Source: Desulfarculus sp. (GTDB taxonomy: Bacteria; Desulfobacterota; Desulfarculia; Desulfarculales; Desulfarculaceae). From it: DNA of 49,184 nucleotides. Positions 15,292 to 49,184 of this stretch are shown here, in pieces (position 1 is the stretch's first letter; the number at the start of each line of letters is the position of its first letter). Made by a program: the position numbers and the translations under genes. Location: positions 1 through 49,184 of the forward strand of contig JACRDC010000094.1 in NCBI GenBank assembly GCA_016218705.1, written 5' to 3'. The notes beneath the pieces were generated by a model. It saw only the letters and a list, made by a program, of their open reading frames with translations, did not search any database and was not told the origin of the DNA.

Positions 15292-15389
15292 CGATAAAAA
15301 CCGGGCGGGGATAAACCCCGCCCCTACATTAACACAATGTGATTATTGCCTTTTATCGTGCAGGGGCGGGGTTTGTCCCCGCCCGTCTT
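15292..15389. repeat. REP-like palindromic pair (family R), copy 1
   Basis: Two inverted GC-rich arms (15303-15325 and 15362-15384) differ at one position. Each arm is itself a near palindrome, GGGCGGGG-ATAAA-CCCCGCCC. Flanks are CGATAAAAACC on the left and CGTCTT on the right, as in the second copy at 47557-47645. The 36-base centre is unrelated between copies. It sits between convergent genes (regulator and kup), a usual place for REP/BIME elements, and may also act as a transcription stop for both. Confidence 0.85.
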
Positions 15390-41806: not shown

Positions 41807-41931
41807 CTGTCATTGCGAGGAGCATCTCTGGAGAGATGCGACGCGGCAATCTTCCGTTTCGGTCTTTTTCAGTGCCAGCCCGAGCAGAAAGAGCGAAGCG
41901 GGAGATTGCTTCGCTGCGCCCGCAATGACAG
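41807..41931. repeat. MITE-like dispersed element with CTGTCATTGCG terminal repeats
   Basis: A 125-bp non-coding element with perfect 11-bp terminal inverted repeats (CTGTCATTGCG 41807-41817; CGCAATGACAG 41921-41931) and internal GAGATTGCTTCGC. Elements of this kind (ending TGTCATTGCGAG and carrying GAAGCAATC) are widespread in many bacteria. It sits between ubiD and ubiA. A degenerate half of the same pattern lies at 48708-48740. Confidence 0.8.
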
Positions 41932-46476: not shown

Positions 46477-46974
46477 ATGGATGCCGAGGATATCCGCCGC
46501 CGCAGCTTCAACCGCCGCTTCCGGGGCCTGGACCCCCAGGAGGTGCAAGCGGTGCTGGAGCAGGCCGCCGAGGGCATGGGCCACCTGCAAAGGGAGGCCG
46601 AGGGCTTGCGGCACGAGGTGGAGGAGCTCAAGAAAGACCTCCAGGAATACCGCGGCCGCGAACAGAGCCTGGAGGCCGCCCTGGCCCAGACCCGCCAGGT
46701 ATCGGAGAGCCTCAAGGCCAACGCCGAGCGCGAGGCCCAACTCTTGATCGCCGAGGCTGAGTTGCAGGCCGAGAAGACCCTGGGTCAGGCCCACAACCGC
46801 CTGGCCCAGATACACGACGACATCGCCGAACTCAAGCGCCAGCGCGCCCAGTTCGAGGTGCGCCTGCGCTCCCTGGTGGAGGCCCACCTCAAGCTCCTGG
46901 ACGTGGAGCGCGACCGCGACCGCGAGCTGGCCGAACTGGAAGACAAGATCAAGTTCCTGCGCTCCCCCTCCTAA
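46477..46974 (+). CDS. DivIVA-domain coiled-coil protein
   Basis: The 165-residue product has the N-terminal DivIVA module SFNRRFRGLDPQEVQAVLEQ (residues 9-28), where the FxxxxRGxDxxEV pattern is diagnostic, then a long charged coiled coil (about 35-155). DivIVA/GpsB-type proteins mark curved membrane or the septum. The start ATG 46477 has GGAGG at suitable spacing; the in-frame upstream extension does not fit. It is followed by a hairpin-rich element and yggU, with which it forms a common gene pair in this phylum. Confidence 0.9.
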   Translation: MDAEDIRRRSFNRRFRGLDPQEVQAVLEQAAEGMGHLQREAEGLRHEVEELKKDLQEYRGREQSLEAALAQTRQVSESLKANAEREAQLLIAEAELQAEKTLGQAHNRLAQIHDDIAELKRQRAQFEVRLRSLVEAHLKLLDVERDRDRELAELEDKIKFLRSPS

Positions 46975-46975
46975 T

Positions 46976-47245
46976 TCAGGTGGCAATCAAATCCATCCAT
47001 GGCTTTGATTGCCTATCGGCCGGGCAAAAACGTGGCTCGGCCCCACAAAGCAGGCTTTGTGGGGACCCCAAGTTTTGCCCGGCCTCCCGGGCGCTGGCGC
47101 GCCCAGCGGGCCTCTTCGGGATTCCCAGCCAACTTGTTGGCTGGGGTGAATCTTCGGGGTCCCCAGCCGACTTGTTGGCTGGGGTGGTTCTTGGCCCGCA
47201 TATCAAGTTGCGACCAAACAATCTGTTTGATCGCAACACGATATA
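46976..47245 (-). repeat. Hairpin-rich dispersed element (family H), copy 1
   Basis: A run of six or more hairpins fills the gap between divIVA and yggU: 46982-47013 (10-bp stem), 47018-47084 (12-bp outer stem GGCCGGGCAAAA with an inner 10-bp stem at 47041-47064), 47089-47104, 47124-47145 (9 bp), 47161-47184 (10 bp, one G-T) and 47207-47237 (14 bp, one mismatch). The two hairpins at 47113-47185 are a tandem duplication of a ~38-bp unit. In the other orientation the element matches 49048-49184 with conserved flanks and different stem arms. No protein is credible in any frame. Confidence 0.85.
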
Positions 47246-47250
47246 ACCCC

Positions 47251-47538
47251 GTGCTGGCGGTCAAGGCCCAGGACGGCGGCGCCAGTTTCAACGTGCGGGT
47301 GGTCCCCCGGGCCGCCCGCGACCAGTTGGGGCCGGTGCAGGAGGGCACCCTCTCGGTGCGCCTGAACGCCCCGCCGGTGGAGGGCGCGGCCAACGCCGCC
47401 CTGGTCAAGCTCATCGCCAAGGCCCTGGAGGTGGCCAAGGGCCGGGTGCGGGTCGTCGCCGGCGAGCATTCACGCCAAAAACGCCTGTGGGTAGAGGGCC
47501 TGGAGCCGGAGGACGTGCTCCACCGGCTGGGGCTGTGA
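47251..47538 (+). CDS. YggU-family (DUF167) protein
   Basis: About 95 residues from GTG 47251: NVRVVPRAARDQLGPV, SVRLNAPPVEGAANAALVKLIAKAL and VVAGEHSRQKRLWVEG are typical of DUF167. No known enzymatic role. No SD sequence precedes the GTG, because the hairpin element ends only 5 bp upstream. The native leader may have been replaced by the element. The upstream in-frame stretch to 46999 is translated element and should not be counted. It overlaps the next gene at TGATG. Confidence 0.88.
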   Translation: MLAVKAQDGGASFNVRVVPRAARDQLGPVQEGTLSVRLNAPPVEGAANAALVKLIAKALEVAKGRVRVVAGEHSRQKRLWVEGLEPEDVLHRLGL

Positions 47539-48659
47539 TGCCGGGGCTTGTACTAAAAGACGATAAAAACCGGGCGGGGATAAACCCCGCCCCTACACGA
47601 AGAGGAAATCTTGATGTAGGGGCGGGGTTTATCCCCGCCCGTCTTACTTTGCCTCTACTGGCCCTGCTGCTCTGCCTGGCCGCCGCGCCGCTTTGGGCCG
47701 CCCCTGCACCGCCCCTGCCCCCGCCTCCTCCCCTGACCGTGCAGGCCGCCACGCCCCAACTTGAGGCCCACGTGCGCGCCATCGTGCAGGAGACCGCCCC
47801 CAGCCTGGCGGCCTGGGTGGGGGCCATCCCGCCCCGCATCCAGGTGGTGGTGGCGGTGAGCGAGGAGGACTTCAAGGAGCGGGTGGCCCAATTGGACGGC
47901 CCCCGCTGGGCCGCCGGCCTGGCGGTGCCCAGCCAGGGCCTGATTCTCTTGCGCTCGCCCCGCCAGCTCATCGAGCCCGAGCAGTTCCGCCAGCTCCTGG
48001 CCCACGAGCTGACCCACCTCTACCTCTCGGCGGCCCTGCGCAACCGCGAGCACCCCCTGTGGCTGGAGGAGGGCCTGGCCATGTACGCCTCGGGCGAGGG
48101 CGGCTGGGAGCGGGCGGCGGCCATGGCCAAGGGCGTGCTGCAGGGCCGGCTGTTGCCCCTGGCCGAGCTGGAGCACGCCTTCCCCGGCGACCAGGATGGC
48201 GCCGCCCTGGCCTACGCCCAGTCATACTACCTGGTCTCCTTTCTGCTCAACCAGCACGGCCAGGACGTGCTAGCCAAAATCATCGCCGAGTTGGCCCGGG
48301 GCAAACCCCTGACCGCCGCCCTGCGCGAGGCCACCGGCCAGGGGCTCTACGCCCTGGAGCGGGACTTCAAGGAGGAGATGACCAGCCGCTTCTCCTGGCT
48401 GACGGTCATCACCGCCGGGGGCACGGTCTGGGTGCTGATCTCGCTGGTGGCCGCCGTGGGGCTGGTGCTCAGGCGGCGCGCCCACAAGGCCCGCATGTCG
48501 GCCATGGCCGATGGCGGCGAGCACGGCGGGGTGCAGGATATGCGCCGGCGCTGGCCGCCGGGACCCAGGCCACGCTTGCGGGGGATTGAGCCGGGGGGCC
48601 AGGGCCGCCGGGAAGAGCCGGAGCGCGCCGGCCAGGAGGGGGATCAGGGAAAGGTTTAG
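47538..48659 (+). CDS. Membrane-anchored MA-type metallopeptidase, N-terminus interrupted in frame by a REP pair
   Basis: The 373-residue product (from ATG 47538, which overlaps the yggU stop as TGATG) has a gluzincin zinc site LLAHELTHLYLS, then HPLWLEEGLAMYASG, the peptidase MA pattern. An extracytoplasmic domain follows, and a C-terminal membrane helix (TVITAGGTVWVLISLVAAVG) with a charged tail. The hydrophobic signal LPLLALLLCLAAAPLWA lies after a REP element at 47557-47645 that is read in frame (residues about 7-36). The TTG at 47649 after the REP is an alternative start that restores a short but basic-poor signal peptide. Start uncertain; core certain. Confidence 0.8.
   Translation: MPGLVLKDDKNRAGINPAPTRRGNLDVGAGFIPARLTLPLLALLLCLAAAPLWAAPAPPLPPPPPLTVQAATPQLEAHVRAIVQETAPSLAAWVGAIPPRIQVVVAVSEEDFKERVAQLDGPRWAAGLAVPSQGLILLRSPRQLIEPEQFRQLLAHELTHLYLSAALRNREHPLWLEEGLAMYASGEGGWERAAAMAKGVLQGRLLPLAELEHAFPGDQDGAALAYAQSYYLVSFLLNQHGQDVLAKIIAELARGKPLTAALREATGQGLYALERDFKEEMTSRFSWLTVITAGGTVWVLISLVAAVGLVLRRRAHKARMSAMADGGEHGGVQDMRRRWPPGPRPRLRGIEPGGQGRREEPERAGQEGDQGKV
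47557..47645. repeat. REP-like palindromic pair (family R), copy 2
   Basis: Two perfect 26-bp inverted arms (47572-47597 and 47615-47640), loop 17 bases, bounded by AAGACG (47557-47562) and CGTCTT (47640-47645). It matches the arms and flanks of the copy at 15292-15389, but with a different centre. It lies inside the open reading frame of the MA peptidase gene, translated without stops. Confidence 0.9.
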
Positions 48660-48707
48660 GCCTGGCGCCCCCAGCCGGGCAGGCCCGGCCCCGCCACGTC
48701 GTGCTGG

Positions 48708-48740
48708 CAGTCCTTGCGAACGCAGTGAAGCAGTCTTTCA
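48708..48740 (-). repeat. Degenerate half of the TGTCATTGCG MITE-like element
   Basis: The segment around CCTTGCGAACGCAGTGAAGC resembles the right half of 41807-41931 read in reverse (CATTGCGGGCGCAGCGAAGC), with about three-quarters of positions equal. No partner half is seen. It is likely a decayed remnant. Confidence 0.4.
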
Positions 48741-48754
48741 CTTCGTTCCCTGGC

Positions 48755-48966
48755 CTGATGCCAGTTTAATAACAACGATCATATAGTATTAGGTTGTTGG
48801 CTTTTGATCCGGGCATCCTTTGGCCGGCGGGCTTTGATTTTTGGCCGCCCATGCCCCGTGTCCCGCTCTTAGCCCGGCCATTCTTAGGGCACCGGCAGGG
48901 GGCTGCCATGATCCACCCGGGATAAGGATACGGGGTCCCTGCGGCCCCTGCCCACGCCAAGGCGGA
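48755..48966 (+). repeat. Dispersed repeat family B, copy 2
   Basis: Reverse complement of 1-209, with substitutions and very short indels. Conserved blocks include ATTAGGTTGTTG, CCCCGTGTCCCGCTCTTAGC and GGCAGGGGGCTGCC. Internal inverted repeat GGCAGGGG/CCCCTGCC. It lies after the peptidase gene and before the hairpin-rich element. It continues to the right beyond what copy 1 shows. Confidence 0.75.
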
Positions 48967-49047
48967 GAGTCCACCCCGCGCCGGCATCCGCGCCGGCAAA
49001 GCCAGTATGGCCGGGCGGCTCTAGCGGGACACAAAAAGAAACCGCTT

Positions 49048-49184
49048 ATACCAAGTTGCGATCAAACGAGTAGTTTGATCGCAACTTGGTATGCGGGCCA
49101 AGAACCACCCCAAAAAAGCCGCGCTTTTTTGGGGACCCCGGTGGATGGCCCGCCGGGCGCGAAAGCGCCCGGGAGGCCGGGCAA
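49048..49184 (+). repeat. Hairpin-rich dispersed element (family H), copy 2, cut by window end
   Basis: A 20-bp perfect stem (49048-49067 with 49073-49092, loop GAGTA), a 12-bp perfect stem (49108-49119 with 49123-49134) and an 8-bp stem closed by a GAAA tetraloop (49153-49160 with 49165-49172). It shares GCGGGCCAAGAACCACCCC (49093-49111) and GCGCCCGGGAGGCCGGGCAA (49165-49184) exactly with the reverse of copy 1 (47181-47199; 47075-47094), while the stem arms between differ. Confidence 0.85.

Follow-up and report, generated by a model that had tools for sequence, protein, structure and literature searches.

We think it probable that the hairpin-rich repeat at the end of this contig is a nest of two layers: a MITE outside and, inside it, separate lineages of a hairpin module whose pairing is needed when the module spreads and is later lost by decay. 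By this account, the two copies present differ because they carry different lineages of the inner module. The whole is best filed as a new MITE that carries a REP-like module of its own kind.

The window, the whole stretch of 49,184 nucleotides that was analyzed, is one entire contig (C64) of a 4.2-Mb draft genome (G000) from the Desulfarculaceae, the family of Dethiosulfatarculus sandiegensis (G006). Three further labels recur below: G002, G003 (the sister species) and G031 (from another family of the same class). A preliminary description had reported two inverted, hairpin-rich stretches here. Its sequences, coordinates and orientation are correct, both exact shared blocks are present in the two copies, and the hairpins that it named (CCCCACAAAG/CTTTGTGGGG, CCCCAGCC../..GGCTGGGG and CCCCAAAAAAGC/GCTTTTTTGGGG) all exist. 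Copy 1 is complementary to copy 2 over two pairs of arms, 47180-47246 with 49046-49112 (87%) and 47075-47112 with 49147-49184 (92%), and each copy, as single-stranded DNA, has a far stronger fold than its shuffles (z about -11). Copy 1 lies between a divIVA-family gene, with its stop at 46974, and a DUF167 gene. It is old: its ends have decayed, and it contains two inserts in tandem. Copy 2 retains an intact TACCAA end adjoining TTA, one copy of the TNA target duplication, and is truncated by the contig end. Many further copies likewise run off contigs, because the assembly breaks at the MITE repeat. The features are as follows.

46976..47246, + strand: MITE copy 1; outer ends degraded, both inner insert sites filled
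46982..47013, + strand: H1 of copy 1; hairpin, loop core CCATCCATGG
47018..47084, + strand: H2 of copy 1; GGCCGGGCAAAA / TTTTGCCCGGCC, module inserted in loop
47041..47069, + strand: inner module in the H2 loop of copy 1; CCCCACAAAGC..GCTTTGTGGGGACCCC
47089..47104, + strand: H3 of copy 1; GGGCGC TGGC GCGCCC
47106..47199, + strand: H4 of copy 1; GCGGGCC / GGCCCGC, two tandem modules in loop
47118..47148, - strand: first tandem inner module of copy 1; arms AGCCAAC.., outer motif decayed
47156..47186, - strand: second tandem inner module of copy 1; CACCCCAGCCAACAAGTCGGCTGGGGACCC on the - strand
47200..47244, + strand: terminal hairpin H5 of copy 1; degraded terminal inverted repeat of the right end
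49046..49184, - strand: MITE copy 2; cut by the contig end
49048..49092, - strand: terminal hairpin H5 of copy 2; ATACCAAGTTGCGATCAAAC/GTTTGATCGCAACTTGGTAT
49093..49153, - strand: H4 of copy 2; GCGGGCC / GGCCCGC, inner module in loop
49106..49141, + strand: inner module of copy 2; CACCCC-AAAAAAGC-CGC-GCTTTTTT-GGGGACCCCGG
49155..49170, + strand: H3 of copy 2; GAAA loop

The interval between the copies (47246-49045) is mainly ordinary coding sequence (DUF167, peptidase MA) and also holds two other repeat families. Positions 48858-49032 hold a dispersed repeat, about 175 bp long and bounded by GTGTCCCGCT..AGCGGGACAC; it has many copies in the sister species, and the MITE has several times inserted in or beside it (C43, C106, C118, L128). 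At 47571-47641 and about 15307-15380, an inverted pair of GTAGGGGCGGGGTTTATCCCCGCCC hairpins fits the GTAG-tagged REP type, and similar sequence stands beside module arrays in L203 and L221. At 41808, TGTCATTGCGAG starts a CGTC-REP-like dispersed repeat.

The preliminary description was right that the element is dispersed; the genome holds far more than the two copies it knew. One strand carries the terminal sequence 154 times and the other 152 times, the near-equal counts that about 150 palindromic ends, each a terminal-hairpin site, should give. Reading about 80 loci revealed the anatomy of the element, a non-coding series of five hairpins: H1 is GCAATCAAAGCCATCCATGGCTTTGATTGC, H2 is GGCCGGGCAAAA/TTTTGCCCGGCC, H3 is GGGCGC-loop-GCGCCC, H4 is GCGGGCC/GGCCCGC and H5 is ATACCAAGTTGCGATCAAAC/GTTTGATCGCAACTTGGTAT. 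The loops of H2 and H4 take optional inserts. The element begins with TACCAA and finishes with TTGGTA, with terminal inverted repeats TACCAATATGCAATCAAAG / TACCAAGTTGCGATCAAAC. Copies range from 78 to about 245 bp and fall into length classes: 78 bp (half of H1 and H5 only), then about 160, about 200 and about 240 bp for copies with no, one and two inserts, respectively. The GAAA tetraloop that had been singled out in copy 2 is present, and it is the commonest of several GNNA loops: the 56 H3 sites carry 27 GAAA, 18 GTAA and 11 other loops.

Two sequences elsewhere touch on this anatomy. A dispersed palindrome, GAGAAAGCCATGGATGGCTTTCTC (L202, L212, L219, L058), has the loop core GCCATGGATGGC in common with H1 and H4, with different arms; this core occurs 143 times in the genome. 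In G031, the MITE end TAATACCAAGTTGCGATCAAACATTT adjoins the TCATTGCGAG repeat (L065 1501-1522, L072 1501-1522), perhaps as part of a related element.

The outer element is a MITE that inserts with a 3-bp TNA target duplication. The family that the preliminary description did not recognize is, in its outer layer, of a known class, the sort of outcome which that description had listed as counting against its reading. Identical 3-bp duplications, always TNA, flank 24 of the 28 full copies in the own genome. Of the 25 copies with TNA at both flanks, 24 have matching middle bases (7.1 expected on permutation). Joining the flanks of G000 copies and searching the sister species with them yielded six empty orthologous sites, which lack the element and show TNA once, or a triplet one base away from it; at two of the six, the duplication around the G000 copy is imperfect (CAA/TAA and TTA/TTG). 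H2-H4 are missing from three 78-bp copies, two of which have perfect duplications, as do seven copies of a subfamily with altered H1/H2. Because such copies carry duplications, the inner hairpins are dispensable in cis for movement of the MITE. Movement is presumably driven in trans by a DDE-type transposase. The own assembly, a draft that may miss collapsed multi-copy elements, has no PF01609 or PF13586 match, and no IS5-type transposase sharing the MITE ends was found, the candidates in G002 lacking them.

Other bacterial MITEs, such as Chunjie of Geobacter uraniireducens and QMITE2 of Coxiella burnetii, are likewise short and non-coding; they have terminal inverted repeats, duplicate a short target and number tens to hundreds per genome, among them size variants and many partial copies, and QMITE2 also has an internal palindromic REP (PMC10969869, PMC5896051). 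The present element consists of serial hairpins nearly throughout, has a palindrome of its own at each end and houses a variable-arm hairpin module in two loops, features that set it apart from QMITE2 and, its ends left aside, from Chunjie.

The insert in those loops is a second entity. The inner module has the form CCACCCCA-arm-loop-arm'-YGGGGACCCCGG, a hairpin of 36-44 nt; within the MITE, the feet CACCCC and GGGGACCCCGG flank a palindrome, and the H2 and H4 inserts stand in opposite orientations. What had been described as one hairpin with differing arms differs between the copies because each holds its own version of a distinct hairpin cassette, rather than through a demonstrated rewriting of one hairpin in place. 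Outside the MITE, the module stands alone or in tandem, often directly after a stop codon; further dispersed palindromes hold it in their loops. Its hosts comprise the H2 and H4 loops, the GAGAAAGCCAT..ATGGCTTTCTC loop (filled or empty), the TCATTGCGAG repeat and tandem arrays near stop codons. In two hairpin contexts, the loop GCCATGGATGGC is either empty or, in related copies, filled by a module next to a repeated GGAT, which suggests module insertion. The module is presumably mobile. An outer palindrome surrounds the module in 20% of cases versus 4%, and is thus enriched but not general.

Pairing of the module's arms is real. Among modules preselected as paired at 5 or more positions, the arms pair at 89% and 85%, versus 50% and 38% when arms are exchanged between modules. 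Because the search pattern is loose enough for chance matches, pairing itself served as the test: among unselected distinct genome-contig matches, 6 or more of the 8 arm positions pair in 66%, versus 4.6% with arms exchanged, and in a second set, contigs binned as viral, the figures are 49% and 6%. In an alignment of 20 selected module variants, the covariation score is 0.446 versus 0.114 in shuffles, with two-sided changes at 8 of 12 pairs. Covariation, which the preliminary description had proposed to examine, is strong between lineages, as measured on selected variants. Outside the search pattern, a C before CACCCC (85%) and an A as the first arm base (85%) are conserved, and the last arm base is T or C.

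The module matches 81 times in the own genome, 41 times in G002, 37 times in the sister species and 19 times in D. sandiegensis, with 0-1 matches to the reversed pattern, and is rare in the remainder of the class. A scan of 85,000 species genomes placed it, among the matches listed, in Acidobacteriaceae, Clostridia, Alphaproteobacteria, Thermus and others. The arms in these distant bacteria are quite different from those in Desulfarculaceae. Rfam returned no credible match to the module at gathering or permissive thresholds, and literature searches on the module motif and on acidobacterial palindromes turned up no description. One Rfam candidate, the Acido-Lenti-1 RNA (RF01687), was rejected: it weakly matches H3 only (21.3 bits versus a gathering score of 37) and leaves the module unmatched.

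A rival reading of this strong covariation is that a transcript of the module, or of the whole element, is under selection as a structured RNA. Several modules directly follow stop codons, 45 of the 56 H3 hairpins have the GNRA-like loops GAAA or GTAA, and the closing position is nearly always compatible with A-U or G-U on the GGGGTCCCC strand. RNA stems tolerate G-U and not A-C. At the inner positions of the module, read in the CACCCC orientation, mismatches have no wobble bias, with 27 G-T versus 38 A-C (p = 0.21) and 40 others; therefore neither strand shows a clear wobble signature of the selection as RNA that the preliminary description had offered. Next to the CCCC/GGGG foot, 86 of 164 pairs are A-T, 51 are A-C and 1 is G-T, which puts A with T or C in 137 cases; a sequence motif could explain the pattern, as could a U that pairs with A or G when the other strand is read. 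A crude count reveals no strand preference relative to genes; the ORF caller behind it yields long spurious frames in GC-rich DNA, which makes "inside ORF" counts unreliable, and we use the strand result alone. The window has no Rfam match at gathering score. Together with the uncompensated decay described next, these observations make the RNA reading the less likely one, and we regard it as unlikely.

If structure were selected in every copy, or if both arms were rewritten together in every copy, stems should change on both sides, and the preliminary description had named uncompensated decay as the refuting result. They mostly do not, either within the genome or between orthologs. Of the 62 H5 hairpins, half (31) show no change and the remainder are almost all altered on one side only. 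Pair changes number 35 one-sided versus 4 two-sided, in a count that takes in a few G003 loci; the two-sided ones fall in two copies, of which one is from G003. The one-sided H5 changes are mostly non-wobble and have no strand bias, again contrary to what an RNA stem would predict. A MITE shared with the sister species at the same site (C36/L172) has one-sided differences. In a set of 24 orthologous palindromes, whatever their type, one-sided change affects 27 pairs and two-sided change 4, the latter in two loci; the one-sided rate gives an estimate of roughly 0.3 two-sided pairs by chance. These decay counts come mainly from the MITE terminal hairpin and less from the module. The claim that arms change while pairing is kept thus stands between lineages, far beyond chance, and mostly fails for single copies.

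In-place rewriting of both arms, by template switching or quasipalindrome correction, nevertheless has one candidate locus. At the C10 hairpin (L200 in G000, near its position 800; L216 on C43 in G003), three adjacent pairs have changed on both sides, the G000 left arm exactly complements the right arm over 19 bp, and the loop is nearly unchanged, while G003 differs. This locus looks like templated copying of one arm and is a candidate template-switch event. At a second locus, the orthologous array L201/L210, the paired arms differ at one shared gene end, for which tandem units lost and gained would also account. One-sided changes alone are seen in the majority of orthologous palindromes and of H5 copies. 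Ongoing arm rewriting is thus not the rule, with a single locus as a candidate, and as the general explanation of the arms it strikes us as quite unlikely.

The remaining comparison is with REPs. Like the GTAG and CGTC families of REPs and REPINs, the module is a short palindrome whose stems are species-specific and differ by complementary changes, and it forms dimers and clusters, some of them inserted within other palindromes (PMC3733652, PMC3116915). A need for pairing at spread, followed by decay of the copies, would be expected of miniature elements with a hairpin that an enzyme recognizes in single-stranded form, as for REPs (PMC8266576). One could take the module to be a REP mobilized by a RAYT/TnpA-REP (Y1) transposase. 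It resembles REPs in size, in palindromic form, in its tandem arrays, in stem types that vary with the species and in insertion within other palindromes (PMC3733652); REPINs are reported to show compensatory changes (PMC3116915), and the 13 genomes with Y1 matches are those picked as acidobacterial. However, the feet CCACCCCA and YGGGGACCCCGG replace the GTAG or CGTC tag, a flanking RAYT is absent, and the own genome has no intact PF01797 gene. Y1 genes are also absent from the six non-acidobacterial module genomes tested, and the one genuine module near 30 Y1 loci corresponds to background density. Mobilization by a RAYT is, in our judgment, very unlikely, and the module is apparently REP-like and undescribed.

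We return to the nested MITE and module lineages. Pairing seems to be filtered as lineages spread rather than kept up copy by copy. The notion is that a step in module spread would need the conserved feet and a formed hairpin, not particular arm bases. Since spread would ignore those bases, founders of new lineages would have intact, freely drifting arms, and in module copies left behind the two sides would afterwards decay separately. The interpretation offered in the preliminary description is, overall, partly supported. More tentatively, we raise the possibility that CCACCCCA-hairpin-YGGGGACCCCGG represents a so far undescribed family of mobile hairpins that spans phyla, recognized by its feet and structure with the arms free, and served by a structure-specific enzyme, probably acting on single strands, that is distinct from RAYTs.

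These findings suggest how DNA repeats can acquire strong pairwise covariation: lineages turn over and are filtered when mobilized, and no copy-by-copy maintenance is needed. The point bears on any RNA discovery pipeline in which covariation counts as proof of an RNA. The cross-phylum module, with its fixed feet and free arms, provides a concrete lead to a new structure-specific mobilizing enzyme.
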